Source: Sedimentisphaerales bacterium (GTDB lineage: Bacteria; Planctomycetota; Phycisphaerae; Sedimentisphaerales; SM23-30). Taken from it: 36,779 bases of DNA. Each line of letters begins with the position of its first letter. The stretch's first letter is position 1. Under the pieces are notes generated by a model. That model did no database searches. It was given only the letters and a program-made list of their open reading frames with translations, and was not told the origin of the DNA. The stretch spans positions 1 through 36,779 of the forward strand of contig JAFGHE010000075.1 in NCBI GenBank assembly GCA_016930295.1, read 5' to 3'. Below, piece after piece: positions 11,676-27,863 of the stretch. Both the position numbers and the translations under genes were made by a program.

Positions 11676-12149
11676 TTAACCCCGGCTTTTAAGCAGATCG
11701 CCTGCTTTTTGTATGTAAGAAGGCAGAGCAGCCCGGATAGGAGCGGTTAACGTCTGGCTGAATTCGTAGGGGGGGGCGATTTCCATGGCAAGTATCCTGA
11801 TTTCATCAGGAAAATCAATCGATAATCTCTTGGCCAGCTCAATCACCTCCGGCAGACCCATAAAATGACGGCAGGTACTGAGCACTTGGTTAAAATCGTC
11901 CGGGCTGAATTCCAGGATTGTTCCAACCGGGTGAACGCCGGTACTCACTGAATCCAATAGCAGAACCTTATCATATCCTGACATTAGCTCTAAAAGAGCC
12001 AGCCCCGATTCTATTGTATCAACGAAATCAATACCCTCAGAACCCTCTTTTTTGAGTATTTGGACAGCCTCAAGTGCTACGGCGTCATCTCCCTTGATAT
12101 CATTACCCAGGGCCAGGACTAATACGGACGTGGACCTATCGGTATGCAT
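11676..12149 (-). CDS. NiFe-hydrogenase maturation endopeptidase (HupD/HycI/FrhD family)
   Basis: This protease removes the C-terminal tail of the hydrogenase large subunit after nickel insertion. The protein begins VLVLALGNDIKGDDAV, the family's opening GN..-GDD segment, and has the metal-coordinating acidic and His positions in the middle (LLLDSVSTGVHP; CRHFMG). At 157 residues its length is normal. It is the last gene of the operon, 16 bases after mvhA, whose product carries the expected cleavage signal. That spacing and order imply it is dedicated to this hydrogenase. Confidence 0.92.
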   Translation of the reverse strand: MHTDRSTSVLVLALGNDIKGDDAVALEAVQILKKEGSEGIDFVDTIESGLALLELMSGYDKVLLLDSVSTGVHPVGTILEFSPDDFNQVLSTCRHFMGLPEVIELAKRLSIDFPDEIRILAMEIAPPYEFSQTLTAPIRAALPSYIQKAGDLLKSRG

Positions 12150-12165: not shown

Positions 12166-13626
12166 TTAATGTCGGATTTCTTGTATCACCTTGCCGGTGC
12201 TATCATGGATGAGGGCGATGAGCGGCATTTGGCCTGGCAGAGAATGAGTGGCACAGGCATGACACGGATCATAAGCCCGGAACGCCATCTCCACCATATT
12301 CAGCAGACCGTCGTTAACCTTTCCACCCTTAATCATTCCCTGGGCCGCCTTTTCCACCGACATGGCAATAGGCGCGGCATTGAAGTTGGTGGCCACGATA
12401 AGATTGACTTTGGTTAAAATACCTTCATCATCAGTAAAATAATGGTGAATCAGCGTTCCCCGGGGTGCTTCCACAATACCCACACCTTCGTCCGGTGTTT
12501 CCGTAGGCACGGCACGTATATCGTCACTGGTGATCTCATCATCTTCCAGCAGTTCCTTCATCCGTTCCGCAGCGTATTGTGCTTCCACCAGACGGGCCCA
12601 GTGAAATGCCAGGGTAGCGTGGGCCGGCTTGCCGCCGAGTGTTTCGTACATCTTCTCATAGGCCGCCTGGGCCAGAGGGGTGGCCATACCATCAGCCGTG
12701 TTACATCGTGCCAGGGGGGCCGACCGCACTACCCCGCTGTCAGCTCCATCCGTAAATCCTTTCCAGCCAATATTTTTCAGATATGGGAAGGTGATATAAC
12801 TCCACGGCTCAACATGTTCGGCTATATGATTCATATAATCACGCGGTGCAAAACGAGCAATTTCCTTACCTTCCGGGCTGACAACACGGACATCCCCTTC
12901 ATAGAAATTCACCTTATTATTCTTATCCACCAATCCCATATAATTGGTCTTGTGGGCATACGCATCGTTGAGTACGAGATTGACATAATCTTCATTTTTC
13001 AAAACCACATCGTCAAAGAGGTTTAAAGAAAACTGAGCAAACTGAATTGCATTCTCCGCCACTTTCAGGAATTCCTGACGTTCTTCCTCGCTGATTCCAC
13101 GGGATACACCCCCTGGTAGTCCAAACACCGGATGAATCACTTTCCCGGCCATCGTTTCCATCATTTGCCGGCATTCCCGCCGTAATCGGATTACTTCAGA
13201 TGCGACATCCACACCCACCTTACCTATCACACCCAGAATATTCCGTTCTGCCGCCGGGGCGCCAGGGCCAACTACAAAGTCAGGTCCGCCCAGAAAATAA
13301 AAGTGCAGATAATGGTCTTCAATCATAAATGCTGAATAGACCAGTTCGCGCAGCTTCTTGGCTGTTGATGTCGGCTCCACATGCCACAAAGAGTCCAGAC
13401 ACTTGGTCGACGCCATGTGATGGGCCGTAGGGCACACCCCACATATACGGGGGGTTATCCGCGGCATCTCCTCGGCCGGCCGCCCAATACTGAATGTCTC
13501 AAAACCACGAAGTTCCGGCACCTGTAAAAATGCTCGTTCCACATCCCCGGCGTCATTCAGAAAGATTTCAATCTTGCCGTGACCTTCAAGACGTGTTATC
13601 GGATTAATGGTTATTCTCTTACTCAT
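12166..13626 (-). CDS. mvhA: NiFe hydrogenase large subunit, MvhA type (group 3)
   Basis: This is the catalytic subunit of a soluble, F420-non-reducing-type hydrogenase. Both nickel-binding motifs are intact: RICGVCPTAHH near residue 60 and DPCHACATH near the C-terminus. The sequence continues for about 25 residues after that His (SLPGQMPL...), the tail removed by the maturation protease encoded next. At 486 residues it fits the Mvh/Vhu family. An AAGGAA site precedes the start by eight bases. Together with MvhG and MvhD it would oxidise or evolve H2 and hand electrons to HdrA. The gene lies 49 bases downstream of mvhG in the same operon. Confidence 0.95.
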   Translation of the reverse strand: MSKRITINPITRLEGHGKIEIFLNDAGDVERAFLQVPELRGFETFSIGRPAEEMPRITPRICGVCPTAHHMASTKCLDSLWHVEPTSTAKKLRELVYSAFMIEDHYLHFYFLGGPDFVVGPGAPAAERNILGVIGKVGVDVASEVIRLRRECRQMMETMAGKVIHPVFGLPGGVSRGISEEERQEFLKVAENAIQFAQFSLNLFDDVVLKNEDYVNLVLNDAYAHKTNYMGLVDKNNKVNFYEGDVRVVSPEGKEIARFAPRDYMNHIAEHVEPWSYITFPYLKNIGWKGFTDGADSGVVRSAPLARCNTADGMATPLAQAAYEKMYETLGGKPAHATLAFHWARLVEAQYAAERMKELLEDDEITSDDIRAVPTETPDEGVGIVEAPRGTLIHHYFTDDEGILTKVNLIVATNFNAAPIAMSVEKAAQGMIKGGKVNDGLLNMVEMAFRAYDPCHACATHSLPGQMPLIALIHDSTGKVIQEIRH

Positions 13627-13675: not shown

Positions 13676-14656
13676 CTAGCTATTCTCGTGCAAATCAACC
13701 AGACGGCGCCTTAGCAGGGAAGCCGGCAAACTGAACCGGTATAAGGTGCCCAAAGGATCGGCCAGGGAATCGGCCAAAACCTGTGATGACTCGGTCGTGT
13801 CAGCTTTTCCCCTGGAGGCTATCGCACTGAGCAGCTTCAAACCCGCATCAAGGGCGTCAGGCGTAGGTCCAAAACAGCCCCGACAGGGCATATTGCCGTT
13901 GATACAACGCTCACCACAGCCGGATCGGGTTGCCGGACCCATACAAAGATACCCTTCAGCCAGGAAACACTTTTCCGGATCAGGGGTGGATGTTGACACA
14001 CGCTTAAAACTGGCGATCGTCAGGTCGTCCGGTTTTGTCTCGTTACGCGGACATGATTCGCATAAAGCCTTTTCCGGGGCCAGCACGGAACCCTTGGGCG
14101 GCAGCTTACCTTCCAGAATGGCATTCACCGCTTCCGCCACCAGATTCGGAGGCGGCGGACAGCCCGGCAAATAATAATCCACGTCAATCACCTGGTCCAG
14201 GGTTTTTACATCTTTCCAGAAAAACGGCAGTTCCAGATCATAATTGTCCACTTTGCTATGCTCCTGGGGAACAGTACCGTTGGGATTGTTTATCGTGGGC
14301 GACAGGTGATATTTGTTGGCGAAGATCTGTTCCTTAGTGGTTGCATTGGCCAGGCCCGGTATACCGCCTATATGAGCACAGGATCCGAACGCCACAATCA
14401 GAGAACATTTTTCCCGCAGAAGTTTTACCCATTCTTCCTGTTCCGACAGGCGCACCGCCCCGTTGATAAAGGCCACTGCCACGTCGCCCGGCTTCCAGGC
14501 CTGCACGTCTTTGAGTTTGATATCAATGGCCACCGGCCATAAGGCAATATCCACCGCGGCCACCACCTTTAAGATATCTTCGGCCAAATCCACCACAGTC
14601 TCTTCACAACCACCACAGGAAGCACACCAATAAAATGCTACTTTTGGTTTTGCCAT
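13676..14656 (-). CDS. mvhG: NiFe hydrogenase small (electron-transfer) subunit, MvhG type
   Basis: The iron-sulfur small subunit carries electrons from the NiFe site to MvhD. The proximal-cluster cysteines are seen in WCASCGGCEE, GSCAHIGG and YLPGCPPPP. The C-terminal third has a second Cys-rich block (CESCPRNE, EKCFLAEGYLCMGP, SGCGERCINGNMPCRGC), matching the medial and distal clusters of Mvh/Frh-type small subunits. There is no twin-arginine signal or membrane anchor, so it is cytoplasmic. It has a good AAAGGA ribosome binding site and lies 26 bases after mvhD. At 326 residues its length is normal. Confidence 0.94.
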   Translation of the reverse strand: MAKPKVAFYWCASCGGCEETVVDLAEDILKVVAAVDIALWPVAIDIKLKDVQAWKPGDVAVAFINGAVRLSEQEEWVKLLREKCSLIVAFGSCAHIGGIPGLANATTKEQIFANKYHLSPTINNPNGTVPQEHSKVDNYDLELPFFWKDVKTLDQVIDVDYYLPGCPPPPNLVAEAVNAILEGKLPPKGSVLAPEKALCESCPRNETKPDDLTIASFKRVSTSTPDPEKCFLAEGYLCMGPATRSGCGERCINGNMPCRGCFGPTPDALDAGLKLLSAIASRGKADTTESSQVLADSLADPLGTLYRFSLPASLLRRRLVDLHENS

Positions 14657-14682: not shown

Positions 14683-15126
14683 CTACAAATTAGTACATAG
14701 GGCTTCAATACGTTCTTGCCAGTTCAGCGGACCGAGTTTCCTGAGTTGTTCCGTGAACTGCTTTACCAACTGGGCAAACAGATCACCTTCCGACGCGGAT
14801 ATCCATTCCAGACGCACACGTTCCCGTTCAATGCCAAACTGGTCCAGAAGATTCAGCAGCATCGGAAATCGACGCATCGCTTTATAGTTACCCTCGGCAT
14901 AGTGACAGTCACCCGGATGACACCCCGCGATCAGTACTCCGTCAGCACCGTCCCGCAGCGCTTTGACCACAAACGTGGGATCAACTCGACCGGAACACAT
15001 AACTCGGATGGCAGCTAAATTGGGCGGGTACTGGATTCGGCTGGTGCCGGCTAAATCCGCGCCGGTATAGGAACACCACCGGCATAAAAACCCAACGATT
15101 TTTGGTTCAAACGATTCGTTGGCCAT
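14683..15126 (-). CDS. mvhD: MvhD, hydrogenase iron-sulfur subunit linking hydrogenase to HdrA
   Basis: This small iron-sulfur protein bridges MvhAG and HdrA in the MvhADG-HdrABC complex. Family cysteines are visible in [22 protein letters not shown] and [10 protein letters not shown], which hold its [2Fe-2S] cluster. I chose the ATG at 15126 (MANESF...) because GGAG lies nine bases upstream; an ATG at 15141 in the same frame has only AAGAGA right against it. It is a free-standing MvhD, not fused to HdrA as in some bacteria. It lies directly downstream of the HdrA C-half gene, agreeing with direct contact between the two products. Confidence 0.94.
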
Positions 15127-15155
15127 ATTCTTTGTCTCCATTTCTCTTAAAAATA

Positions 15156-16916
15156 CTAGGCCAGGATCCCTTCAATTTCTGAGAATATCTGTTCATCCTC
15201 AAAATTCTTCTGGTGCGCCGCCCCCGAGGGACAACCCGCCACACAGGTCCCACAGCCTTTACATAATTCCTCAGTCACAACGGACACTCTCTTTTCTTCA
15301 TCATAGTCAATCGCCGCATAAGGACAGTTGGCAATACACAATTGACATCCGGAACAACGCTCTTCATTGATTTCTGCGGTAATCGGTTCCAGTATAACTT
15401 TGCCCTTGTCAATCAGCGATAACGCACCTGCCGCGGCGGCGGCGCCCTGGGCCACGGAATCAGGAATATCCTTGGGCCCCTGACACGCCCCGGCCAGGAA
15501 AATCCCGTCGGAGATGGCGTCCACCGGCGCCAGTTTGGGATGCTTCTCCAGGTAAAAACCACCCTTCGAACAATTCAGCCCCAATATCTTGCTCAGCTTA
15601 TCCGAGTCAGATCCCGGTATCAAGGCACTGGAAAGTATTACCATATCCACCGGCAACCGACGCGTTAATCCCAAAAGCGTGTCTTCGGCAATGACTATCA
15701 GTTTGCCCTTTTCCTCATCCGTTTCCGGCACGTCGGTCACTTCCGCACATTTACCCCGGATAAAATGAACACCCTCACCTAAAACTCGCTTATAAAATTC
15801 TTCATATCCTTTGCCAAACGCCCGCATATCGATGTAAAGATTATAAACCTCGGCCTCGGTCTTTTCCTTGACCAGGTGAGCAAATTTAAGTGAGTACATA
15901 CAGCAAACTCGGGAACAGTACTCGTGGTAGTTTTCATCCCGGCTGCCGATACAGTGTAAAATAGCCACGGCCTGTGGTTCACGACCGTCCTTGGTAAATA
16001 TCTTACCGCCGGTCGGTCCGCTGGCATGGCTGATCCGCTCAAATTCAAGCGAATTGATCACATTATCCAGTCGCCCATAGCCATAACGGAAAATTTCAGA
16101 ACTGTCAAAAAGCTCAAAACCAGTAGCCACAATAATAGCGCCTACTTCGACCTCTTCAACCTTGTCTTCCTGATCGAAGTCGATGGCATCCGCTTCGCAG
16201 AACTCTTGACACGCCTGGCATGTCCCTTTCTGAAAATACATGCAGGTATTGGTGTCAATGACCGGTACATTGGGAACCGCCTGGGCGAATGGGACATAGA
16301 TACTCGGTCGACCGGATAATCCCTCGTCAAAAGCCAGAGGAATCGGTCGCAGTGTCCGTTTTGTAATTTTTGAAAGATCAACACAGTCCGCCGGACACAC
16401 AACCTGACACGCACCACAGGCCATACAGATGGGAGAATGCCGGTCGTAAGCCGGAGCAATTTTTTTCTCTCGGCCCCGGTTCACAAAGTTGACCGCGCCG
16501 ATCCCCATCCTTTCCTCACAAACCCTCACACACTGACCGCATAGAATACAGTCTTCGTTCTTTTTCGGGAACCGGACCTCTTTAATATCCATCTGTTCCG
16601 CCAGTTGTTTCACCGGCGCCACCTCCGGACAACGGGCCAACAGCAACTCTACCATGATTTTGCGCGTTTTTAATACACGCTCCGATGCCGTATTTACCAC
16701 CAGGCCGTCCTGAGCCGGGTAGGTACAGGACGCCTGAATCTGCGTACCCCAGGAATATTCCAGTTCCACCAGGCACACCCGGCAGGCGCCGTACGGCAGC
16801 AGAGACTTGTGGTGACAAAGGGTAGGAATCTCAATGCCCAGCTTTTGGGCCGCTTGCAGAACGGTTGATCCCTCTTCCACTTCCACTACATTACCATCAA
16901 TTGTCAAGCTTATCAT
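15156..16916 (-). CDS. NuoG/HoxU-type ferredoxin module fused to the C-terminal half of HdrA
   Basis: Residues 1-80 are a plant-type [2Fe-2S] ferredoxin (Cys 34, 45, 48, 64), as in NuoG, HoxU and HndD. The His-ligated cluster motif usual in NuoG is missing; the stretch reads [11 protein letters not shown]. Two [4Fe-4S] motifs follow (Cys 123/126/129/133 and 164/167/170/174). From about residue 190 the sequence becomes HdrA, starting at its interior ([20 protein letters not shown]). It continues through [35 protein letters not shown] and the FAD-closing [16 protein letters not shown]. The end has the two HdrA ferredoxin motifs ([24 protein letters not shown]). The HdrA N-half with the GGGIAG flavin fold is missing here and is encoded at 22161-23450. 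No [FeFe] H-cluster motif is present. Its ribosome binding site, GAGGAG, lies inside the end of the PHP gene, 3 bases upstream. Confidence 0.93.
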
Positions 16917-16919
16917 ATC

Positions 16920-18098
16920 TTACTCCTCATTGTGAAGCCGTTTGCTATCAAATCCGACTATGAGTTGAGAATCTTTCCTGTATTCAAACTGAAGATGTAA
17001 ATTCTCTCGACCCGACAGGATCGTTTGTAATGTTTCACTGATATTACCAATAGGTTTCAGGTCCGGGTGACTCAACTGGAATATGGCTTTCACCGTGGTA
17101 CCTTGCCCCGGTTTCGATTGTAACTCCAGGTTTCCCCCGCTTTGTTTGGCCGCCTGCGCCAGCAGGGGCAGGCCTAATCCCACTCTCCGTGTGGTACGCG
17201 TGGTATAAAACGGATCAAAGACTTTTCTCTGGGTCTCCTCGTCCATACCCTTGCCGTTATCTCGGATCTGCAGAACAAGTGTATCCTTTTCGGTATTTTC
17301 GTTGAGTTCGATCTCGATACGAGTGGCTGACGCCGCAATCGAATTTTCCGCAATGTCCAGTATATGTAACGACAGATCTTCCATGGCTACGGATACCCTC
17401 CGATCATCTTCGTTATGCAGAGCCTTGTATATCTCTTCGAAACTTGGGGCTTCGGCCAGAATCAATGTATAGCTTTTGCCAATGTCCCCCAGACAGTGGG
17501 CGTCCGATGATCTCAATACCGCATAGTCCGACCACTCATTAAGGCGGGCCCGCGCAGATACTTCCACCGCATCGAGTCTCAGTCCTTCAGGGATAAAACC
17601 CAACTGTCTTTGCAGGCTGAATCGCGGGCGGTCTATATGGGCCGCCACCGCCAGCCCACCACAGGTGTGGATGGCATCAACCACCTCATCCAGCCTCAAA
17701 TCCGTGGCGCCAATCAGCAATTTTGTATTATTCCCGGTTATCTGATCATTTTCATCCACTATCGTCTGCGGACCGAAGGCAGCCTCGTCATTTTCACCGG
17801 CCAGGTGTTCATCAACCAATGCCTGAATATACCTCAGGTCACCCAGACTCGGGAAAAGACCCGTAATATGGACTTCCTCACACGAGGTTATCTCGATGCC
17901 CGGAATCACGGATAGTGATTCCCTGCCTGCGGCTTTTAATACCGCCGCCACATTCTCAGTCGAATTGTGGTCACATATGCCAATCATATCCAGGCCCGCG
18001 GTCCTTGCCTGCCTGACTATTGCCGAAGGTATCATCTCAGCCTCCCCGCATGGCGAAAGGCAGGTATGTATATGCAAGTCCGCTTTGTACTCCTTCAT
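16920..18098 (-). CDS. PHP-domain phosphoesterase fused to a HATPase domain
   Basis: The N-terminal PHP domain (about 1-230) begins ADLHIHTCLSPCG and has further metal ligands in GICDHNS, PGIEIT, AAHIDRP and SSDAHCLGD. The C-terminal part (from about 235) is a GHKL ATPase with N-box DIAENSIAA, G1 RDNGKGMD and the GLGLPL loop. A dimerisation histidine box is not evident, so it may act as an anti-sigma-like or signalling ATPase. Genes of this kind accompany DRTGG and HATPase proteins in operons of NAD-linked bifurcating [FeFe] hydrogenases, where their role is not settled; here they sit in a NiFe/Hdr operon. The gene lies 63 bases after the second DRTGG gene and nearly touches the HdrA C-half gene. 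Confidence 0.88.
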   Translation of the reverse strand: MKEYKADLHIHTCLSPCGEAEMIPSAIVRQARTAGLDMIGICDHNSTENVAAVLKAAGRESLSVIPGIEITSCEEVHITGLFPSLGDLRYIQALVDEHLAGENDEAAFGPQTIVDENDQITGNNTKLLIGATDLRLDEVVDAIHTCGGLAVAAHIDRPRFSLQRQLGFIPEGLRLDAVEVSARARLNEWSDYAVLRSSDAHCLGDIGKSYTLILAEAPSFEEIYKALHNEDDRRVSVAMEDLSLHILDIAENSIAASATRIEIELNENTEKDTLVLQIRDNGKGMDEETQRKVFDPFYTTRTTRRVGLGLPLLAQAAKQSGGNLELQSKPGQGTTVKAIFQLSHPDLKPIGNISETLQTILSGRENLHLQFEYRKDSQLIVGFDSKRLHNEE

Positions 18099-18161
18099 AA
18101 TGGCCGGTACTTCTCCTGCATGGCCTGCAAGGTCTGCGCCGATTCAGTCTCTATTCGCTTT

Positions 18162-18521
18162 CTACGACGTTTTATTACTTACACCTCGTACGCCAAGGTC
18201 ATAAAGCCGGCCGATAAGTTCAAAGGCCGGCAGCTTACTCACCATAATCACTATCTTTTCACTCTCTGCTTTCTGGATCGTATCTTCGTCAGGCTCTCGG
18301 CCGCCTGTCAGTATAATGCCGGAAAGCTCTTTCATACTGGCGACCGCCACGATATTCACGTGAGCCTGCAGGGTAATCCAGAGATCACCTGACCGGCTGT
18401 TGCCTATCACATCACTGAGCAGATCACTGGCGTACCCGCCGGTTACCTCCTTTTTAAAAAGGTTATCGGAGCACGATCTTACTTCAAGACCAAGCGTTTC
18501 CACCAGTTCAGTTAACTTCAT
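18162..18521 (-). CDS. DRTGG-domain protein (second copy)
   Basis: This is a small cytoplasmic protein of about 119 residues made of a single DRTGG domain, an accessory regulatory fold without known catalysis. The family segment is seen in SGIILTGGREPDEDTIQKAE, with the end YDLGVRGVS. I chose the ATG at 18521 because GAGGAG lies just upstream; a longer frame to 18551 would overlap the previous gene more and lacks a site. It overlaps the CBS-HATPase gene by 14 bases, so the two are translationally coupled. It is a distant paralogue of the DRTGG protein at 19451-19807. Confidence 0.85.
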   Translation of the reverse strand: MKLTELVETLGLEVRSCSDNLFKKEVTGGYASDLLSDVIGNSRSGDLWITLQAHVNIVAVASMKELSGIILTGGREPDEDTIQKAESEKIVIMVSKLPAFELIGRLYDLGVRGVSNKTS

Positions 18522-19431
18522 GTGGCTCCTCGTTGATCCGGAAGGAAACATTCAAAGTCGTTCCCCTTCCCGGTTCCGATTCTATGATAAACTCGTCGGC
18601 GCTTTTTTTCATATTAACCAGACCCATCCCGGCTCCAAATCCCATTTCCCGCACCCATTCCGGCGCCGTGGAATAACCCGGCTCCAGCGCCTTTTCCAGG
18701 TCCGCAATCCCCGGCCCCGAATCTTCAATTTCCACGAAAACCCGGGCCGGCTCCACTTCAGCTCGTATCCGGCCGCCCTCGGTATAAATCACCAGGTTCA
18801 TCTCTGCCTCGTAACTGGCGATTGCGATTCGCCGCACCAGGTCGGAACGTAAACCCAGACGTCTCAGGGTCCTTTTCAAACGGGTGGAACTGTCACCCGC
18901 CTGCGTGAAATCCTGACCTTTGACGTTATAGCGTAACTGAAGACTGGTATCGTCCGCCTCAATATTATCAAAAAGGTACCGGGCCGGAAAGTGACGGGCT
19001 TCCTGTTCCTGATAATCAATTTCCAGTTTCTTTAGCAGCCCCTCAATCACATCCCCTTTGGTCAGAATCCCCACCAGCGTCTTCTGGTCACGAGTGATGA
19101 CAGGAAATCGGCCTAAACTCGTACTCTCAAATTTCCGAATCGCCAGCACCAGGGGGTCATCTTCATATATAGTTGTCACTTCCCGGGTCATCCTCTCTTC
19201 TATCGCACAATCCTCCTGATCATTGGCTAACCACTTGATAAAATCCTCAATACTGATCAGGCCCACCAATTGACCCTTCTCCAGGACGGGTACCCCCGAA
19301 ATTCGATTGCCTTGCAGTAAACTTCTCAGCCGGCTCATACGTTCTTTCGAACCGATCGTAATGACGTCGCGGGTCATGACCGCGCTGACCTTCATTTCGT
19401 AAACCATTTCCTGGGTCTTACCTACATTCAC
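18508..19431 (-). CDS. CBS-pair protein with C-terminal RsbW-like HATPase domain
   Basis: Residues from about 12 to 130 form two CBS motifs (VSAVMTRDVITIG...GVPVLEKGQLVGLIS and RMTREVTTIYEDD...RFPVITRDQKTLVGILTKGDV), which usually bind adenine nucleotides. The C-terminal half is an anti-sigma-type GHKL ATPase (SYEAEMNLVIY N-box, DSGPGIAD, GMGLVNMKKSADE, PGRGTT). The combination suggests an energy-charge or redox-cofactor switch for the hydrogenase complex; this is inference. I chose GTG at 19431, seven bases after AAGGA and 19 bases after the stop of the upstream DRTGG gene. An open frame to 19554 would overlap that gene by about 100 bases and is unlikely. Confidence 0.85.
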   Translation of the reverse strand: MNVGKTQEMVYEMKVSAVMTRDVITIGSKERMSRLRSLLQGNRISGVPVLEKGQLVGLISIEDFIKWLANDQEDCAIEERMTREVTTIYEDDPLVLAIRKFESTSLGRFPVITRDQKTLVGILTKGDVIEGLLKKLEIDYQEQEARHFPARYLFDNIEADDTSLQLRYNVKGQDFTQAGDSSTRLKRTLRRLGLRSDLVRRIAIASYEAEMNLVIYTEGGRIRAEVEPARVFVEIEDSGPGIADLEKALEPGYSTAPEWVREMGFGAGMGLVNMKKSADEFIIESEPGRGTTLNVSFRINEEPHEVN

Positions 19432-19450
19432 CTGGAATTCCTTCTTGAAT

Positions 19451-19807
19451 TTATTCCTTCGTTTCAGAACATCCTTTAAGCCCGTGGTAATAGAGACGGC
19501 CACAACTTTCAAACATGGGCACCCGCGTGGCCAGAAGCGGCAGACTGTGCTCACGGGCCATGGTTATGGTCTCCTCAGGAGGCCTCTTGCCTCGTACAAA
19601 ACAAATGCCTACAATTTCAGCAATCTCACACGTTCGGACCACCTGGGGATTGGTTAATCCGGTCAGCAGCAGAGAACCTTTTTTGCCAAAGGCCAGCACA
19701 TCACTCATCAGGTCGGCTCCGCAACCCATTTCCACGTCGATCTCCTCCAGATTCGTGCCCACAATGACTTCCGCATCCAGGACCTTTCGGGCATCCTCTA
19801 AATTCAT
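19451..19807 (-). CDS. DRTGG-domain protein (first copy)
   Basis: This single-domain protein of about 118 residues resembles DRTGG proteins in hydrogenase operons: MGCGADLMSDVLAFGKKGSLLLTG, then VRTCEIAEIVGICFVRGKRPPEE and a YYHGLKG end. The TGG of the name motif is replaced by RGK here, while the second copy keeps it, so the two may have different ligands. ATG at 19807 is chosen because AAGGA lies about eight bases upstream; a frame running to 19846 lacks a site. It follows the nuoF-like gene after an 88-base gap, in which I see no promoter, and precedes the CBS-HATPase gene. Confidence 0.83.
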   Translation of the reverse strand: MNLEDARKVLDAEVIVGTNLEEIDVEMGCGADLMSDVLAFGKKGSLLLTGLTNPQVVRTCEIAEIVGICFVRGKRPPEETITMAREHSLPLLATRVPMFESCGRLYYHGLKGCSETKE

Positions 19808-19935: not shown

Positions 19936-21750
19936 TTAATGGCTAACTGCTGCTTCCATGACACTATTAGCCACCTTGGTCACCGCATTGAAGGTACATA
20001 CATCATAACAGGCGCCGCACTTGGTACACTTGTCCGCTATGATCGTATGGGGCGATTTGCTTTCACCCTGAATGGCCCCATGGCCACAATGCTTCCTGCA
20101 CAGTCCGCAGCCGGTACATTTTTCTTCATCGATTTTGAACTGGAACAGCGGCTTGCACACCCCGGCCGGGCAGTGTTTGTCCCGAATATGAGCCTCATAT
20201 TCATCACGAAAATGGCGAATCGCGCTCAACACCGGATTTGGAAGACTCTGCCCTAATCCACACAGAGACGCATCAATAACGGCTTGTCCCAATTCCTCCA
20301 GAAGTTCGATATCTCCTTCCTGACCCTCGCCTGCGCATATCCGTGTGAGGATCTGGAGCATAACATCCGATCCTTCCCGACAGGCTGTACATTTCCCGCA
20401 TGATTCATCCACGCCAAATTCGATAAAGTACTTGGCCACATCCACCATACAGGTATCTTCATCTACCACGACCATGCCGCCGGAACCCATAATTGCCCCG
20501 GCTTCCTGCAACCGCTCGTAATCAACCGGTAAATCCAGAAGACGCTCCGGTATGAATCCACCGGAGGGCCCGCCGGTCTGCACGGCCTTGAGTTTCTTGC
20601 CGTGGGGAATGCCTCCGCCAATATCATAGACAATCTCTTTAAGCGTTATGCCCATCGGCACTTCCACCAGCCCGGCATTGTTGACATTACCGGCCAGAGA
20701 AAACACTTTTGTTCCCTTGCTCTTTTCAGTCCCGATTTCGGCAAACCACTTGGCGCCCCAGTTTATAATCGCCGGCACATTGGCCCATGTCTCCACATTA
20801 TTAATCACCGTGGGTTTGCCCCACAATGCCGTACGCGGCGGACGCTGACGGGGCTCGGGGGGCTTACTTTCAATCGAGGCTACCAGGGCTGTCGTCTCGC
20901 CACAGACGAACGCACCGGCCCCTTTAAATATCTCTACATCAAAATCAAAACCAGTATCAAAAATGTTTTTACCCAGTAAACCATATTCACGGGCCTGCTC
21001 CACCGCCAGCTCCATCCGCTCAATCGCCAGCGGATACTCAATCCTTACGTACACATAGCCATACGAAGCGCCTATGGCATAGGCCCCGATGGCCATCCCT
21101 TCCAGTACTGAATGCGGATCGGCCTCGATGATACTTCGGTCCATAAACGCTCCGGGATCACCCTCGTCCGCGTTGCATATGATGTATTTCATGTCATCCT
21201 GCATCTTCCGGCGGCTTTCCCATTTACGACCCGTGGAAAAACCGGCTCCTCCCCGGCCTCGCAGTCCCGATGTCTTTATTTCTTCAATGACCGCTTCCGG
21301 CGCCATCGAAGTCAGAACCTTGGCCAGCGCCTTATACCCGTCACGCGCTATGTATTCCTCTATCTTATCCGGATCGATCATGCCCCGATTACGCAGCGCT
21401 ATCAGACGCTGATCCTTGAAAAAAGGAATTTCACGCAATTCCGGAATCGGAGTCTTCTCGCCCGGCGAAACATACATCAATGATTCCACCGGCCGGCCCT
21501 TGAGTAAATGTTCCTCCACCAGATGGGGAATATCTTTGGTCTTGAGCTTCTGATAGAAAATCCCGTCCGGCTGCACGACCAGTATCGGCCCTTTCACACA
21601 TAATCCGCTGGCGCCGGTCGGCACGACCTGGATATCATCCTCCAGCTTGTGTTTGCTGATTTCCTTTTCCAAAGCCTCTTTTATCTGCAAAGACCCGTTC
21701 GATATACAATTCGTGCAGGTACAGATCATTACGTTAGCTCTGTGTGGCAT
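19936..21750 (-). CDS. NuoF/HndC-type NAD(P)H-binding flavoprotein (diaphorase subunit)
   Basis: This 604-residue subunit binds FMN and NAD(P)(H) and exchanges hydride electrons with the complex. An N-terminal thioredoxin-like [2Fe-2S] domain (Cys 10, 15, 51) has Ala 47 where a fourth Cys is expected. The NuoF core shows SGLRGRGGAGFSTGRKW (FMN/NADH) and CNADEGDPGAFMDR. Next comes CGETTAL (283-289), where most relatives read CGEETAL. An SLBB-like segment and a [4Fe-4S] motif follow (SCGKCTACREG). The C-terminus adds two ferredoxin motifs (CTGCGLCRKHCG; CTKCGACYDVC), the HndC/HydB layout rather than respiratory NuoF. The ribosome binding site is GAGGAG, eight bases from ATG. It lies 12 bases after the HndB-like gene. 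Confidence 0.95.
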   Translation of the reverse strand: MPHRANVMICTCTNCISNGSLQIKEALEKEISKHKLEDDIQVVPTGASGLCVKGPILVVQPDGIFYQKLKTKDIPHLVEEHLLKGRPVESLMYVSPGEKTPIPELREIPFFKDQRLIALRNRGMIDPDKIEEYIARDGYKALAKVLTSMAPEAVIEEIKTSGLRGRGGAGFSTGRKWESRRKMQDDMKYIICNADEGDPGAFMDRSIIEADPHSVLEGMAIGAYAIGASYGYVYVRIEYPLAIERMELAVEQAREYGLLGKNIFDTGFDFDVEIFKGAGAFVCGETTALVASIESKPPEPRQRPPRTALWGKPTVINNVETWANVPAIINWGAKWFAEIGTEKSKGTKVFSLAGNVNNAGLVEVPMGITLKEIVYDIGGGIPHGKKLKAVQTGGPSGGFIPERLLDLPVDYERLQEAGAIMGSGGMVVVDEDTCMVDVAKYFIEFGVDESCGKCTACREGSDVMLQILTRICAGEGQEGDIELLEELGQAVIDASLCGLGQSLPNPVLSAIRHFRDEYEAHIRDKHCPAGVCKPLFQFKIDEEKCTGCGLCRKHCGHGAIQGESKSPHTIIADKCTKCGACYDVCTFNAVTKVANSVMEAAVSH

Positions 21751-21762
21751 GATTTAAACTCC

Positions 21763-22146
21763 TCAAAAAGTCCTTTCACTCCCTGCGGCTAGTGCGTATT
21801 CCTTAATCATTTCTCCGCCCAGTACGTGTTTCACAAAAACCTCCTTCGCTTTCTCCGGAGTCATATCCACGTACTTAACGGCCGGCTTCCCTTCCATCTC
21901 CACCGTGACCATAGGTTCACGACTGCACAGTCCGGCACAACTGGAGATAGTCAATAATACATCTTTCACATCCCTGCTCTCCATTTCATCCATTAATGCC
22001 TTCATCACGGGCCTGGCCCCCGCGGCTATGCCGCAGGTACCCATATGAACGATTACCTTTGAACGGCCCGACCCTTCACGCATGAGCATCGTTCGTTTCA
22101 CCTTGCCTGCAACCTTGTCCAGATCGCCCGGTTTTAACTTAGGCAT
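21763..22146 (-). CDS. HndB-like thioredoxin-fold [2Fe-2S] ferredoxin
   Basis: This 127-residue iron-sulfur protein resembles HndB and the free thioredoxin-like ferredoxins of NADP- or NAD-linked hydrogenases. Cysteine motifs are HMGTCGIAAGAR and SSCAGLCSREPMVTVEM. It probably carries electrons between the NuoE and NuoF parts or serves a structural role. It has a strong AAGGAG site seven bases before ATG. It sits 14 bases after the HdrA-N/NuoE gene and 12 bases before nuoF, so the three reproduce the HndA-HndB-HndC order. Confidence 0.9.
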   Translation of the reverse strand: MPKLKPGDLDKVAGKVKRTMLMREGSGRSKVIVHMGTCGIAAGARPVMKALMDEMESRDVKDVLLTISSCAGLCSREPMVTVEMEGKPAVKYVDMTPEKAKEVFVKHVLGGEMIKEYALAAGSERTF

Positions 22147-22160
22147 GTCAGTTCTCCTTG

Positions 22161-23450
22161 CTAACTGTATTCTTTAATTAGTTCCCGAACATCGGTTTGT
22201 TTGAAATATCCGTATATCTTTTCGTCCACCGCAATCACAGGAGACTGGCCGCAGCAGCCCAGACAGTTCACTGTCTCAAGACTGAACTGCTGGTCACGGG
22301 TGATATCTCCGGCACCGATACCCAACTGGTCTTCAAAGGCTTCCAGTATCCGGTTGCCGCCCTTCACATAACAGGCCGTACCCATGCAGATACGGATAAC
22401 ATGCTTACCCTGGGGTGTTAGACTGAACGCATTATAAAAAGTTGCCAACCGGTATACCTTACCCAGCGGAACCTCCATTTCCCGGGATATATATCGCAGC
22501 GCATTTTCCGGCAGATAGTTGAACGCCATCTGGGTGTCCTGCAATGCCGGGACAATGGCGCCCTTGGCCTCCCGGTATTTCTCCATGATCCCCTGCATGG
22601 TTGCTGCTTCGTCCGGTTCCATTACAATCTCCGGCTCCTCGTCAGGTTCCAGATAGGCAACGTTGCGCACCAGGCACCCTCGCATACATTCACCACAGCC
22701 CGTACACTTGCTCTCATCCACGTAACGCGCCTTGCGACGGATTTTAGCCTTGAAATTACCCACGTAACCGGATACTTCCTCCACTTCCGAATAGGTCATC
22801 AGCTCAATATTCGGATGCTGACCTACCTGCACCATCTTGGGCGTTAGAATACAGGCGGCACAGTCCAGGGTAGGGAACGTTTTGTCGAATTGAGCCATAT
22901 GACCACCAATAGAAGGTTCTTTTTCCACCAGGTACACCTTCTTGCCGGAGTCGGCAATTTTCAGGGCCGCTTCGATCCCGGCAATACCCCCACCGACTAC
23001 CAGCGTATCCGGATGAACCGGCGCTTCCCGCTGTTCCATCGGCGTCTGATATTTCACCCGACGGACCGCCGCCGTGATAAGACGCTTGGCCTTGGCCGTG
23101 GCTTTTTCACGGTCCGAATGTACCCACGAACACTGCTCCCGGATATTGGACATCTGGAACAGAAACCGGTTCAAACCCGCATCCTCGCACGCATTACGGA
23201 ACGTTTCCTCATGCATCAGCGGTGAACACGAAGAAACCACCACACGCGTCAGCTTGTCCTCTTCAATATCTTTCTTGATCAGGTCCTGGCCCGGTTCGGA
23301 ACACATGTATTTGTATTCCCGAACCACTGCCACGTCCGGAAGAGTTCTGGCATATTCAACAAGTTTTTTTATATCCACCGTATGCGAAATGTTCGTTCCG
23401 CAGTGACAGATATAAACTCCGATTCGCTGGCTGTTATTTTCTTTAATCAT
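22161..23450 (-). CDS. N-terminal half of HdrA fused to NuoE
   Basis: Residues 1-265 match the front of HdrA: an iron-sulfur domain with CHCGTNI (Cys 15, 17), Cys 50 and SSCSP (Cys 75), the FAD fold VVGGGIAGIEAALK (151-164) with IGGHMAQFDKTFPTLDCAAC, the YSEVEEVSGYVGNF segment and a ferredoxin motif (Cys 249, 252, 255, 259; CL instead of the usual CP). HdrA then stops. From about residue 283 a NuoE-type thioredoxin-like domain follows, with its helical lead-in (LPENALRYISREMEVPLGKV) and [2Fe-2S] ligands Cys 355, 360, 396 and 400. The rest of HdrA is in the gene at 15156-16916. It begins with ATGA overlapping the stop of hdrB, so the genes are coupled. The protein is cytoplasmic and expected to form half of a split flavin site. 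Confidence 0.94.
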   Translation of the reverse strand: MIKENNSQRIGVYICHCGTNISHTVDIKKLVEYARTLPDVAVVREYKYMCSEPGQDLIKKDIEEDKLTRVVVSSCSPLMHEETFRNACEDAGLNRFLFQMSNIREQCSWVHSDREKATAKAKRLITAAVRRVKYQTPMEQREAPVHPDTLVVGGGIAGIEAALKIADSGKKVYLVEKEPSIGGHMAQFDKTFPTLDCAACILTPKMVQVGQHPNIELMTYSEVEEVSGYVGNFKAKIRRKARYVDESKCTGCGECMRGCLVRNVAYLEPDEEPEIVMEPDEAATMQGIMEKYREAKGAIVPALQDTQMAFNYLPENALRYISREMEVPLGKVYRLATFYNAFSLTPQGKHVIRICMGTACYVKGGNRILEAFEDQLGIGAGDITRDQQFSLETVNCLGCCGQSPVIAVDEKIYGYFKQTDVRELIKEYS

Positions 23451-24340
23451 GAATTATACACCTTTTCCGTTAGCAACTCTTCCACCGGCGTCAAAGAATC
23501 TTTCAACGCCAGATCCTTCTGGTTAATTCCAAACGCAGCTCCCATAAGCTGGGTAAAATACAGAATCGGAATACTGCAGTCTTGCCCCATGGCGTCATTG
23601 ATCGTATCCTGGTAGGCCTCCAGATTTATCTGGCACAACGGGCAGGCCGTGATAATGCAGTCCGCCCCCTGGTCTCGGGCGCATTTAAGTATGTTGCCGG
23701 ATAACTTTACGCCGATTTCCGGTTGCGTGGTCATCATCATTCCGCCACAACACTTGGCCTTCAGTGCAAACGGCACCGGTTCGCCGCCCAGCCATTCGAT
23801 AAGCCGGTCCATCATCTGCGGGTCCTCCGGATCATCAATCTCGCCAAACGGCCGGCTGATCTGACAGCCGTAATAGGGCGCCACCTTCAGACCGGACAGA
23901 GGCCTGCTTACACACCCGCGCACCTCTTCTTCGCCCAGGTCATTGACAATCACATCCAGAAAATGACGAACCTTCACACCACCCCGATAATTCATGCCCC
24001 CGGCCGCCAGGGCCTTCTGAATTTCCGCCTGTAACTGGGGATTCTCACTCATGTACTTATTTGTCTTGTTTAGAACCAGGTAACAGCCGTTGCAGACCGT
24101 GACCAGTTCCAGACCTTCCTTTTCCGCAATGGCCAGATTCCGGGCAGATAACACAAAGGCACGCTTTTCATGAATGGCCATATACGCCGTCGCACCGCAG
24201 CAGTTCCAGTCGTCAAGTTCCGATAGCTCTATTCCTAAGGCTCCGGCCACACTCCGGGTGGACATGTCATACGCACGGTTGGTACCCTTGACTGAACACC
24301 CGGGATAATACGTAAACTTCTTTTTGTCCATCGTACTCAT
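23447..24340 (-). CDS. hdrB: HdrB, heterodisulfide reductase subunit B
   Basis: This is the catalytic disulfide-reducing subunit. Both CCG motifs are complete: CSVKG...NCCGAT...CNGC in the first half, and YYGCQ...KCCGGMMM...CPLC in the second. In HdrB these hold the two unusual non-cubane [4Fe-4S] clusters that cleave the disulfide. At 297 residues its length is normal. The start overlaps hdrC by ATGA and the end overlaps the HdrA-N/NuoE gene by ATGA. A bacterium of this type is not expected to make CoM-S-S-CoB, so the natural acceptor is unknown. Two Met codons (24340, 24331) could start it; the overlap favours the first. Confidence 0.95.
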   Translation of the reverse strand: MSTMDKKKFTYYPGCSVKGTNRAYDMSTRSVAGALGIELSELDDWNCCGATAYMAIHEKRAFVLSARNLAIAEKEGLELVTVCNGCYLVLNKTNKYMSENPQLQAEIQKALAAGGMNYRGGVKVRHFLDVIVNDLGEEEVRGCVSRPLSGLKVAPYYGCQISRPFGEIDDPEDPQMMDRLIEWLGGEPVPFALKAKCCGGMMMTTQPEIGVKLSGNILKCARDQGADCIITACPLCQINLEAYQDTINDAMGQDCSIPILYFTQLMGAAFGINQKDLALKDSLTPVEELLTEKVYNS

Positions 24341-24906
24341 GTTTCACCATTTTTCTCTATTGCAGCGACCATCTTTCTGAAACCTTCGATCCCTTTGATC
24401 GTATGGGGAAGAAATTCCAGTCGGCCCCTGGTTATCAATTTCCTGACCAGATTCATCTGGCCAAACATCTTGAACATATTGGTGCGCAGATAATATTTCT
24501 GCAGCAGTGTCGTCTCCGCATTTCGGCCATGTTTATCAACCACCTCCGTAAACGCCCGCGCCATCACCGCATTCGTGGTGTCGGGTGGATAGAGATTATG
24601 TTTCACTCCCAGGCGTTTCAGTTCATACATCACATCCGTAAACGGTATCTTCGCCGGACAACGCACTGAACAGGAATAGCACGATGCACACAGCCACACC
24701 GTATTCGATTTCAGTACCTTCTCCAGCACGCCCGCCCGCAACGCCGCGATGATCTCTCGCGGACCGTACTCCATCGCACTACTGGTGGGACACGACGCCG
24801 AACAGGTACCGCATTGAATACATTTGTCGATACTCTTCCCCTGAGGCAATTCATATACATGACGTAGGAATTCGCTGCTTAGCCTTGCGGCCTCGGTATT
24901 GGCCAT
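24337..24906 (-). CDS. hdrC: HdrC, heterodisulfide reductase subunit C
   Basis: This iron-sulfur subunit passes electrons from HdrA to HdrB. It has two [4Fe-4S] motifs, CIQCGTCSASCP and CASCYSCSVRCP. At about 189 residues it has the normal length of the soluble form and lacks the membrane helices of HdrE/DsrM. It is the first gene of the operon, about 60 bases from the predicted start site of a sigma-54 promoter. GGAGG precedes two adjacent ATG codons; the second (24906) has the better spacing of five bases, while 24909 has only two. Confidence 0.95.
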   Translation of the reverse strand: MANTEAARLSSEFLRHVYELPQGKSIDKCIQCGTCSASCPTSSAMEYGPREIIAALRAGVLEKVLKSNTVWLCASCYSCSVRCPAKIPFTDVMYELKRLGVKHNLYPPDTTNAVMARAFTEVVDKHGRNAETTLLQKYYLRTNMFKMFGQMNLVRKLITRGRLEFLPHTIKGIEGFRKMVAAIEKNGET

Positions 24907-24975
24907 CATTACCTCCAGATTTTAAAAAGACATTACTTTAAATAAATGACATTCAAATAGACTACTTCATTAATA

Positions 24976-24992
24976 AGCAATTAGCATGCCAA
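24976..24992 (-). promoter_or_regulatory. Sigma-54 (-24/-12) promoter of the hdr-nuo-mvh operon
   Basis: On the minus strand the sequence TTGGCATGCTAATTGCT has GG and GC dinucleotides exactly 10 bases apart and matches the RpoN consensus TTGGCAC-N4/5-TTGCT at almost every position. Transcription would start near 24966, about 60 bases before hdrC. An NtrC-type activator with an intact GAFTGAD loop is encoded immediately upstream. Confidence 0.75.
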
Positions 24993-25203: not shown

Positions 25204-26535
25204 CTAAGAGAGCCTGTGTTTGTTGAGCTTATCACGAAATGTGGATAATTTCATGCTTAGCGCCCGCGCCGCCGCACTTTTATTACCATTACAATGATGT
25301 AAAGCTTTTTCCAGCAGTTCTCGTTCCGCCTTCAGAACAGTATCCTTAAATCCATTATTCTCAGTAGGTTGTATCGGGCAGGTATGTATGTCCCGCGAGA
25401 GCAACTCCGCCGTGATGACACCGTTGCCCACGATAAAAGCCCGCTCCAGGGCATGGGCCAGTTCTCTGACATTACCCGGCCAGGAGTGAGACTGTAAAAA
25501 TTCCATCGCATCATCTTCCAGGCGATAAGCCCGGTCCCCGGCAATTCGCTTGAGCAGATGCTCTACCAGTAACATCAGATCACCCACACGCTCTCGCAAC
25601 GGCGCCAGCGTAATACGCAGCACATTGAGTCGATAATAAAGGTCGCTGCGGAATGTGCCTTTCTGCGCTTCAACCAGAAGATTTTTCTTGGTGGCTGCGA
25701 TAATTTTGACATCCGCTTCTATGGGTGTATGACCCCCAACCCGTTCAAATACTTTTTCTTCAATGACACGAACGAGTTTAATCTGCTGGTCCCACGGTAT
25801 ATCGTCCACATCATCCAGATAAATCGTACCACCCTGGGCCATATCAAATTTACCCTTCTTTTGCTCATCCGCACCGGTAAACGCACCTTTTTCATGGCCA
25901 AACAGACCGCTTTCAATTAAATGGGCCGGCAGCGTGGAACAATTTACCTTAACAAATGATGATGAGCTTCGCCCTGACCTCGTATGAATGGTATGGGCCG
26001 CCAGGTCCTTGCCGGTCCCGGTTTCTCCAATCAACAGGACCGTGGCATCACTACGTGCACACAGTTCCACCATCCGGCGCACTTCACCCATGGCCTTCGA
26101 ACTGCCTACCATAATATCTTCCAAAGGTGTTTGAGTGCCCCTGACAAGTCTCGATGAATCCGCCGACATGAGCCGGACGCTTTTCCGAATCCGCTCCAGC
26201 AGCGGAAATATCTTTTCATTGCGGAAGGGTTTGGTAATAAAATCGAACGCACCCAGCTTCATTGCTTCCACTGCCAGCGGAATACTGCCGTACGCCGTCA
26301 TCAAAATCACTTCCGTTTTGTTCTCCGGATTACGCTTGATCCGGTTAAGCAGTTCCATGCCGTCGATACCCGGCATACGCAGATCGGTGACCACCACGTC
26401 AAATCGTTCTTTTTCCAGACATTTTAAGGCTTCCTGCGCATTGGCTATCGGGACTGCCGTATAACCCCGATCCCTCAGATCATCAACCAGGGAAACACGC
26501 TTTATCTCTTCATCATCAACGACTAGGATTCTCAT
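25204..26535 (-). CDS. Sigma-54-dependent response regulator (NtrC family: REC-AAA+-Fis)
   Basis: This 443-residue transcription activator has a receiver domain (VVDDEE; phospho-acceptor Asp at about 52 in VVVTDLRMPG; Lys in FDFITKPF). The AAA+ domain has Walker A GETGTGKD, the sigma-54 contact loop GAFTGAD (in GHEKGAFTGADEQ), Walker B GGTIYLDDVDD and the arginine-finger region. The Fis-type HTH is at the C-terminus (CNGNKSAAARALSMKLSTFRDKL). It is co-transcribed with the histidine kinase upstream (4-base ATGA overlap). The sigma-54 promoter of the hydrogenase operon lies less than 300 bases downstream on the same strand, so it is the prime candidate activator. Confidence 0.95.
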   Translation of the reverse strand: MRILVVDDEEIKRVSLVDDLRDRGYTAVPIANAQEALKCLEKERFDVVVTDLRMPGIDGMELLNRIKRNPENKTEVILMTAYGSIPLAVEAMKLGAFDFITKPFRNEKIFPLLERIRKSVRLMSADSSRLVRGTQTPLEDIMVGSSKAMGEVRRMVELCARSDATVLLIGETGTGKDLAAHTIHTRSGRSSSSFVKVNCSTLPAHLIESGLFGHEKGAFTGADEQKKGKFDMAQGGTIYLDDVDDIPWDQQIKLVRVIEEKVFERVGGHTPIEADVKIIAATKKNLLVEAQKGTFRSDLYYRLNVLRITLAPLRERVGDLMLLVEHLLKRIAGDRAYRLEDDAMEFLQSHSWPGNVRELAHALERAFIVGNGVITAELLSRDIHTCPIQPTENNGFKDTVLKAERELLEKALHHCNGNKSAAARALSMKLSTFRDKLNKHRLS

Positions 26536-27863
26536 ACCAATTCCTTTTCCTTAATATAGGCACTCTCGGCGGTATTTAGAATAATCCGAAACGTCGTGCC
26601 TTCTCCCAGTTGACTTTCCACTTCAATGTCACCGCCCATTTCGGATATAAGCATCCGGCACAATGCCAGACCCAGGCCCGTGCCACCCTCATTCTGGCGC
26701 GTTGTAAAAAAAGGCTCAAATATTTTGTCCAAATGCTCCGGCCGGATGCCAGAACCCGTGTCGGTGACCTCAACCGTCACCCTTTTAAACTGGGCCAGGG
26801 CCGGCCTCTCCGGCACAAACGTACTGAGGGTAAGCTCACCCCCTTCGGGCATAACGGTCAGGGCATTCGTACACAGGTTAAAGATTACTTCCTGAAGCGT
26901 AAAGGTATCCCCCCATACCAGCGGGATATTACCTAAATTCGTACGGACGCTAACCCCGTGTTTACTGGTCTGGCCTAACAGGTCCATAACCGCTTCCACC
27001 GCCTTGTTCACATCCGTATCCTGCAACTCCAGTCCGCGCGGCCGGGCAAAAAACTGAACCCGTTTCGCCGTCCGTTCAATCCGTTCCAGAGCTTCGTTCA
27101 TCATGGTCACATACTTATGCAGATGCGGGTCACCGTTCACGCTTTTACCGATCGTCTGCAGACAATTCTGTACCCCGTCCAGCGGATTACTGATCTGATG
27201 CGCTATCCCCGCAACCAGTTGACCGATGCCCAGCATCTTTTCCTTCTGACGCATGACCGCCTGCATTTGATGCATATAATTATTTATCGACGAAGTAAAA
27301 TAAACCGTAATCCACAATGTCGTGGAAAACGCAATAAAAAATCCAAACATGTATATTTCATCCAGCTTAAGCTGTGATTCCGCTATCATAAACGTATCCT
27401 GCTCCAGTACCGTGTTATTTTCCGGCATGACGCCCAGGTAGCCCGCCACCAGAAAAAGTCCCACCAGTACCGACGCCAGACCCGCCAGATAATACGGCGC
27501 CCGACCCGGAAGCAGCAACGAGGCGATAATCAGATGAAATACAAAATAAAATATAAACGGATTGTAATGCACCCCGGAAAAATACAATAATAATATCAAA
27601 GCAATCTGATCCAGCGCTATCTGCAATATGATGTTCCGGTCCAACTTCGAACCACGCGGTGTCCGTCGTCGGCCGAACCACGCGAATATCGAATTATAAA
27701 CCAGCATCGCGCCCACAATGATATAAAGCGGCATTGGATGTGAAACCACCTTCAATACCCACGAACTCACCCATACCACCAGGATTACACCCAGACACAC
27801 GATCCATCTGAGACTCACCAGCCATTGAACCCGATTCGACAATATCTGCAGCGGAAGCTTCAT
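26532..27863 (-). CDS. Membrane-bound sensor histidine kinase
   Basis: The N-terminal half (to about 195) holds around six hydrophobic segments (for example WIVCLGVILVVWVSSWVL; MPLYIIVGAMLVYNSIFAW; FYFVFHLIIASLLL) with no large extracytoplasmic domain. It probably senses a membrane-embedded or redox signal. The kinase core has the H-box VAGIAHQISNPLDGVQNC, N-box EVIFNLCTNAL, G1 DTGSGIRP and GGTGLGLAL. It precedes and overlaps the NtrC-type regulator by ATGA, so the two form a cognate pair. AGGAG lies close before the ATG. What it senses cannot be read from the sequence; H2 or redox state would fit the target operon. Confidence 0.93.
   Translation of the reverse strand: MKLPLQILSNRVQWLVSLRWIVCLGVILVVWVSSWVLKVVSHPMPLYIIVGAMLVYNSIFAWFGRRRTPRGSKLDRNIILQIALDQIALILLLYFSGVHYNPFIFYFVFHLIIASLLLPGRAPYYLAGLASVLVGLFLVAGYLGVMPENNTVLEQDTFMIAESQLKLDEIYMFGFFIAFSTTLWITVYFTSSINNYMHQMQAVMRQKEKMLGIGQLVAGIAHQISNPLDGVQNCLQTIGKSVNGDPHLHKYVTMMNEALERIERTAKRVQFFARPRGLELQDTDVNKAVEAVMDLLGQTSKHGVSVRTNLGNIPLVWGDTFTLQEVIFNLCTNALTVMPEGGELTLSTFVPERPALAQFKRVTVEVTDTGSGIRPEHLDKIFEPFFTTRQNEGGTGLGLALCRMLISEMGGDIEVESQLGEGTTFRIILNTAESAYIKEKELV

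Follow-up and report, generated by a model that had tools for sequence, protein, structure and literature searches.

The closest described counterparts of the system reported here are the group D (M2e) loci, for example that of TamHydS, in which a HydS gene lies upstream of a bifurcating HydABC hydrogenase and is flanked by a 'histidine kinase-like ATPase'. The signalling route of group D HydS is stated there to be open (PMC8163306, in the sections consulted). The Bfu family comprises HydABC homologs with varied third substrates, including NiFe-Bfu and a Bam-Bfu with an HdrA module (PMC9304861, in the sections consulted). We analyzed a window of 36,779 nucleotides (the whole stretch of DNA under study) from a Sedimentisphaerales bacterium, contig JAFGHE010000075.1. 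A block of four genes lies in this window within an operon for a [NiFe] hydrogenase and HdrABC (NiFe/Hdr operon). The block encodes two DRTGG proteins, a CBS pair fused to a HATPase, and a PHP domain fused to a second HATPase. We propose, with a confidence of about 0.55, that the block is an ATP-dependent kinase/phosphoesterase signalling cassette with exchangeable sensors, which serves NAD-linked redox complexes whatever their catalytic end.

Relatives of the block resemble the group D loci in pairing a HydS-like sensor with a GHKL ATPase, within an operon that encodes a NAD-linked bifurcating hydrogenase. These HydS-like proteins share the Cx2Cx4Cx16C end of group D, and their H-domain is without the proton-path cysteine of group A. 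The window differs in that it has no HydS, a CBS pair is fused to the ATPase, and the catalytic end is NiFe/Hdr. DRTGG and PHP partners do not appear in the consulted sections on group D loci (PMC8163306). With the Bfu family the operon shares the NuoE/NuoF/NuoG-type core, the full BfuB domain set, and varied catalytic ends, and with Bam-Bfu the coupling to HdrA. The consulted sections of PMC9304861 name no Bfu type that ends in HdrABC-MvhADG with its HdrA divided between NuoE and NuoG, and they do not treat the regulatory block. With the methanogen HdrABC-MvhADG complex the operon has HdrA/B/C and MvhA/D/G homologs in common, and their HdrB and [NiFe] motifs are intact. It differs in that HdrA is split and fused to NuoE and NuoG and that an NAD(H) module is present. 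The first HATPase shares the GHKL kinase fold and boxes of SpoIIAB/RsbW partner switching. In the window, however, PHP takes the place of the PP2C phosphatase, DRTGG proteins are the possible partners, and no STAS match was found among the 12 operon proteins scanned by profiles. The block was not described in the open-access papers covered by a literature search on DRTGG and PHP with hydrogenases, which is a weak sign of its novelty. Useful new points are how widely the cassette is spread, that CBS can replace HydS, and that HydS-like sensors occur in genomes without maturases.

Proteins of the block and their spread

The four genes lie on the minus strand between nuoF and nuoG-hdrA, and Pfam confirmed the identities given in a preliminary description of this DNA. 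DRTGG1 matched Pfam DRTGG at E 2.6e-4, under the cut-off of 25.2 bits, and DRTGG2 matched it at E 8e-6, above the cut-off (Table 1). The CBS-HATPase contains a CBS pair (E 1e-23) and HATPase_c_2 (E 5e-9). The PHP-HATPase contains PHP (E 1e-7), PHP_C, and HATPase_c (E 2e-19), with no HisKA match in Pfam. For the CBS-HATPase, the family alignment makes GTG 19431, downstream of the DRTGG1 stop codon, the most likely start, in place of 19554. DRTGG2 most likely starts at ATG 18521.

In the following, HATPase_a is the first HATPase, associated with CBS or HydS, and HATPase_b is the second, associated with PHP. The nearest profile match of HATPase_a is SpoIIAB (E 3e-10), which is also its best fold match (1til, template modelling score 0.85 by target length), and the window protein shows the SpoIIAB-type GHKL fold and boxes. 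The CBS-HATPase model had a predicted local distance difference test (pLDDT) value of 85 and a predicted template modelling score of 0.48, so that its single domains, but not their arrangement, can be relied on. By profile and fold, the CBS pair matches the AMP/ADP/ATP-binding proteins AcuB and MJ1225, and G-x-x-S/T-x-x-D is conserved in both repeats. CBS domains are of a kind that usually reads cell energy (ATP/AMP). The AlphaFold model of DRTGG2 (pLDDT 90.9) matches the solved DRTGG domains 2ioj and 3l2b/3l31 and the N-domain of HPr kinase. The DRTGG1 motifs D-L-M-S-D and LLTGL.N.Q are conserved across 95 loci. The D-L-x-S-D serine is kept in both DRTGG proteins and is invariant over 29 rows in DRTGG2. 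The PHP metal residues (HxH, DHN, H, SDAH) are retained across the family, and the N, G1, and G2 boxes of HATPase_b are present in 99/102.

The same gene set recurs in 115 mapped loci with PHP from about 20 named phyla or candidate divisions; the block is therefore not a chance arrangement. The PHP-domain search found it in 8/343 Planctomycetota genomes, in 78/125 genomes of the phylum of a Cloacimonadota genome (G396), and in 4/331 genomes of one further phylum. The wider contig search gave 396 PHP-domain places, of which the best 80 were kept. No Firmicutes were among these best 80, and the classical clostridial and Thermotoga HydABC operons lie outside the comparison. The 115 loci comprised 66 NiFe/Hdr, Hdr, or NiFe operons, 9 [FeFe], 4 Rnf, and 36 others, a tally that overstates the NiFe/Hdr share because the 80 loci were picked by likeness to the window. 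The 36 others, L061, L076, and L207 among them, were left without a class owing to contig ends or other catalytic ends.

The block had been described as typical of [FeFe] hydrogenase operons, and its link to them stands in part. It occurs in nine operons with a true H-cluster HydA (L105, L107, L211, L216–L219, L221, L223), but it is found more widely in other operons. Some of these have no hydrogenase, namely Rnf operons (L045, L081, L222) and Fdh-like operons (L061, L076, L207) whose NuoG-like proteins carry a molybdopterin domain. This counts in part against the preliminary reading, which had named frequent presence of the block in operons with no hydrogenase or diaphorase as contrary evidence, though a diaphorase is nearly always beside the block. 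Moreover, 20 Planctomycetota [FeFe] regions were fetched by the A6 model, and 19 showed clear H-cluster motifs and no block on the mapped piece, although at least four of the 19 (L187, L188, L189, L204) end at or near NuoF and are uninformative. Upstream sequence without the block is present in L186, L190, L192, L195, L198, L200, L201, and L203. Two of the genomes with such cut regions, G066 and G200, carry the block on a separate contig that stops within NuoF or shortly ahead of it, so that a single broken [FeFe] operon may underlie each of the pairs L104/L204 and L106/L189. A more fitting name for the block is a cassette of Bfu/NuoEFG complexes, which are NAD-linked and probably electron-bifurcating.

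Members of the cassette are fused to each other, as PHP-HATPase (window, L026, L037), DRTGG2-PHP (L107), DRTGG1-HATPase (L085), and HydS-DRTGG2 (L224), which supports their joint action. An apparent HATPase_b-NuoE fusion in L102 was rejected as an artefact; its frame crosses a stretch of unknown bases.

Operons with RnfD, G, E, and A (L045, L081 (= L013), L014, L222, L100) hold NuoE, NuoF, and a NuoG-like protein. NuoE often has an N-terminal Fer2 there, NuoF is often fused to a GltD-like domain, and the block is complete or reduced. These operons may feed Rnf through a NuoEF module.

Exchange of the sensor and phylogeny

The sensor of the block in [FeFe] operons has two 4Fe-4S domains, an Fe_hyd_lg_C domain, and a Cx2Cx4Cx16C end; the layout was read by Pfam on the NiFe/Hdr examples L057 and L102, and the cysteines over all 40 HydS. 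This is the layout described for group D HydS (PMC8163306, in the sections consulted). HydS is a separate gene after HATPase_a or is fused to it (HATPase-HydS: L104, L105, L106, L223), and the contig of L107 ends before the place where it would be expected. An N-terminal CBS pair on the HATPase replaces HydS in 66 loci, the window among them, and none of these 66 is an [FeFe] operon. NiFe/Hdr operons have either sensor. Both sensor types are fused to the same HATPase, and the DRTGG, PHP, and GHKL partners are common to the window's cassette and the HydS loci.

In the H-domain tree, a single clade (99*) takes in all these HydS and leaves out catalytic HydA and the HydS-HK proteins; within it, the [FeFe]-side and NiFe/Hdr-side HydS are sister sets (86 and 90). 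The four H-cluster cysteines are kept in 39, 36, 40, and 39 of 40 HydS, the second being Ser in three Fdh-type loci. HydF (above cut-off) or HydG was found in 0/19 genomes with HydS in a non-[FeFe] operon (L050, L052, L057, L071, L083–L086, L088, L093–L098, L101–L103, L224), whereas one or both were present in every [FeFe]-side genome tested (17/17; Fisher p 1e-10, relatedness of genomes ignored). Gaps in incomplete genomes might account for a missing gene here and there, but hardly for the lack of HydF and HydG together in each of the 19. The HydS of NiFe/Hdr operons are therefore probably without an H-cluster: in maturase-free genomes, either HydS binds only [4Fe-4S] clusters or the genomes have another maturation route.

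All trees were midpoint-rooted and in effect unrooted, and the direction of transfer was left undecided. The preliminary description had asked whether NuoF and the block proteins branch with [FeFe] operons; they group with NiFe/Hdr, and the [FeFe] proteins stand apart. In the NuoF tree the window belongs to a clade (99*) whose 58 rows come from NiFe/Hdr, Rnf, and Fdh-like operons, and every [FeFe] NuoF, with or without the block, is outside. Three Rnf rows are nested inside the NiFe/Hdr rows (98*), indicating that the catalytic end changed while NuoF was kept; the block was retained with NuoF in L045 and L081 and reduced in L014. In the PHP-only tree the window is in a 22-row starred set with zero [FeFe] rows, and PHP matches outside the block family reach only 22–45 bits at best. 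The joint block tree (HATPase_a, DRTGG2, PHP, HATPase_b; 99 rows) needs a single change of sensor label, between sides of 60 CBS and 37 HydS rows. In a careful 47-row block tree, support was 99/98 for the NiFe/Hdr-HydS clade, 74/56 for the CBS side (91/83 when the Rnf locus L222 was omitted), and only 60/27 for the [FeFe]-side rows as one side.

Proposed mechanism and competing explanations

In the proposed mechanism, the CBS pair would bind an adenine nucleotide and gate the SpoIIAB-like GHKL kinase. The kinase would phosphorylate one or both DRTGG proteins, with the conserved serine of D-L-x-S-D as the candidate site, and the PHP domain, tied to the second GHKL ATPase, would take the phosphate off. 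The phosphorylation state of the DRTGG proteins would set the activity or level of the redox complex, being read out by the complex or its expression. In [FeFe] operons and some NiFe/Hdr operons, a group-D-like HydS would be the sensor instead of CBS. We infer this switch from the SpoIIAB likeness, the CBS matches, the PHP residues, and the conserved serine.

Several points weigh against a signalling cassette of this kind. The kinase, phosphatase, and binding roles of its members are all predicted. The box strings of HATPase_a are inexact in 12/103, and SpoIIAB-like kinases act on STAS proteins, of which the operon scan gave no match. PHP domains also act on nucleotides, so the PHP substrate may be a small molecule. 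The block has no neighbouring diaphorase in L095, L097, L101, and L215, so its target need not be NuoEF. Finally, the function of the block genes could lie in assembly instead of signalling.

The preliminary description suggested that an [FeFe]-hydrogenase regulatory block was taken over, together with its NuoEFG chassis, by a NiFe/Hdr enzyme. The NuoEFG core and the cassette are indeed shared with [FeFe] operons, but an [FeFe]-first direction is not settled, and we regard this origin as rather doubtful. True [FeFe] operons carry the block, [FeFe]-side HydS blocks are outermost at the midpoint root, and the HydS with H-cluster cysteines in the 19 genomes free of HydF and HydG looks like an [FeFe] relic, a hint but not proof that the [FeFe] form came first. 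However, the NiFe/Hdr NuoF and block proteins are grouped apart from the [FeFe] ones rather than nested inside them, the HydS of the two classes are sisters, the roots are all midpoints, and many Planctomycetota [FeFe] operons have no block.

It is unlikely that the block acts on transcription only, by feeding the neighbouring sigma-54 regulator pair. That regulator and its kinase adjoin the operon, a −24/−12 site is well placed, and sigma-54 regulators lie near 16/88 relatives; but the pair looks self-sufficient, most relatives have no such regulator within reach, and a good site was found in just 2/56 upstream stretches, leaving general sigma-54 control of these operons unsupported. Assembly or cofactor insertion for NuoEFG-type complexes, with the GHKL ATPases as chaperones and PHP as a nucleotide-cleaving enzyme, is quite improbable: the block does sit inside the structural operon at the diaphorase, and GHKL domains without HisKA also occur in chaperones and MutL, but many HydABC operons manage without the block, a sensor part is nearly always paired with the first HATPase, and the GHKL match is SpoIIAB, not a chaperone.

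Returning to the signalling cassette, we tentatively propose a wider form, to which we give somewhat less than even odds. One cassette would serve at least four catalytic ends with three sensors: an H-cluster HydS in [FeFe] operons, an H-cluster-free [4Fe-4S] redox HydS in NiFe/Hdr operons of maturase-less genomes, and a CBS energy sensor in the window class. On this reading, the DRTGG, PHP, and SpoIIAB-like parts would supply the signalling route that is missing for group D HydS. The cassette names candidate partners for that route, and the replacement of HydS by CBS on one and the same kinase gives an indication of their function and makes an open question on hydrogen sensing testable. The control genes go with the NAD/ferredoxin module rather than with the hydrogenase, and a hydrogenase-like sensor is retained in genomes seemingly unable to build its active site.

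Redox complex and operon layout

The source genome (Planctomycetota, 4.2 Mb, 329 contigs, 88.6% complete) showed no Fe_hyd_lg_C protein in the profile search, and hence no HydS, no HydF above cut-off, and no HydG. The lack of an H-cluster protein noted earlier in the window thus extends to the whole genome. An [FeFe] HydABC has an H-cluster domain and maturases; the window's system has neither. The C-half of HdrA does occupy the place of the H-cluster domain, as had been proposed: the FeFe A6 hydrogenase model matches only residues 2–183 of the nuoG-hdrA protein, followed by HdrA2 at 192–584 (NCBIfam). HdrA is cut between HdrA2 model positions 256 and 257, with 1–256 on the NuoE chain and 257–640 on the NuoG chain, so that the two chains together carry one HdrA. 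In most CBS-type relatives (loci L024–L110), the arrangement is NuoG-HdrAc-HdrAn-HdrAc of about 1080 amino acids, that is, one and a half HdrA, and NuoE is fused to a short HdrA piece; the single split HdrA of the window is a smaller form.

The closest solved relatives of NuoF are HydB of the A. woodii [FeFe] and A. mobile [NiFe] bifurcating hydrogenases, aligned end to end (7q4v and 7t2r, residues 3–593). NuoF has the full BfuB set of the FMN 51K domain, NADH_4Fe-4S, and C-terminal 2x4Fe-4S, and the BfuC-like [2Fe-2S] and BfuA-like 2Fe-2S and 4Fe-4S cysteines are present in the window proteins. The N-terminal [2Fe-2S] ligands of NuoF are rearranged (residues 10, 12, 15, 47, 51), with Cys12 gained and the third ligand Ala. 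The Cys12 gain and an Ala/Ser third ligand occur together in 18/18 loci and never singly, and 62 loci have the usual pattern. In the FMN-domain tree L033 and L047 fall with the window, yet both keep the usual pattern, which may reflect an exchange of the N-terminal domain. The HdrB CCG motifs and the [NiFe] cysteine motifs of MvhA are intact. The catalytic end is a split-HdrA HdrABC and MvhADG [NiFe] complex. Together with the NuoF alignment, this suggests a complex that connects H2, NAD(H), and ferredoxin with an HdrB acceptor of the disulfide or another type.

Most gene identities of the operon were backed by domain searches (Pfam, NCBIfam).

Table 1. Features of the window, with the operon genes in their order on the minus strand from hdrC to the maturation protease
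Feature	Position	Strand	Basis
HdrC	24337..24909	-	profile search
HdrB	23447..24340	-	profile search; two intact cysteine-rich motifs (C...CC...C..C)
N-half of HdrA fused to NuoE (BfuC-like)	22161..23450	-	HdrA2 residues 9-262, 2Fe-2S_thioredx 286-428
HndB-like thioredoxin-fold protein	21763..22146	-	domain search
NuoF/HydB (BfuB-like): Trx domain, FMN domain, 4Fe-4S, two C-terminal 4Fe-4S	19936..21750	-	domains, structure match, tree
DRTGG protein 1	19451..19807 (open reading frame open to 19846)	-	Pfam DRTGG 21.2 bits; conserved motifs
CBS pair fused to SpoIIAB-like GHKL ATPase	18508..19431	-	Pfam CBS and HATPase; GTG start inferred
DRTGG protein 2	18162..18521	-	Pfam DRTGG 26.1 bits; AlphaFold and Foldseek
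PHP phosphoesterase fused to GHKL ATPase without HisKA	16920..18098	-	Pfam PHP, PHP_C, HATPase_c
NuoG N-half (BfuA-like) fused to C-half of HdrA	15156..16916	-	NCBIfam; PDB HdrA match
MvhD	14683..15141	-	Pfam FlpD
MvhG, small [NiFe] subunit	13676..14656	-	sequence; recurrent neighbour in relatives
MvhA, large [NiFe] subunit	12166..13626	-	RICGVC and DPCHAC motifs
Hydrogenase maturation protease	11676..12149	-	TIGR00072, HycI
Candidate sigma-54 promoter TGGCATGCTAATTGCT, upstream of hdrC	24976..24991	-	one of the window's two matches with 1 mismatch
Sigma-54 response regulator (25204-26535) and histidine kinase (26532-27863)	25204..27863	-	sequence; homologs beside some relatives

The placement of the candidate sigma-54 site speaks for it, and the number of matches in the window is not above chance.

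Other proteins were observed beside the block in single loci. In L073:14744-16828, NuoG-like 2Fe-2S and amidohydrolase domains share one frame after the block, possibly an assembly or frame artefact. In L085:1353-3624, two H-domain proteins stand ahead of NuoE and the block, the first of them a NuoG-like protein with a fused glycine cleavage H domain. In L206:11468-13447, from a single genome of the Cloacimonadota set, a protein with a SpoIIE phosphatase and HATPase_c_2 follows the block and NuoF.

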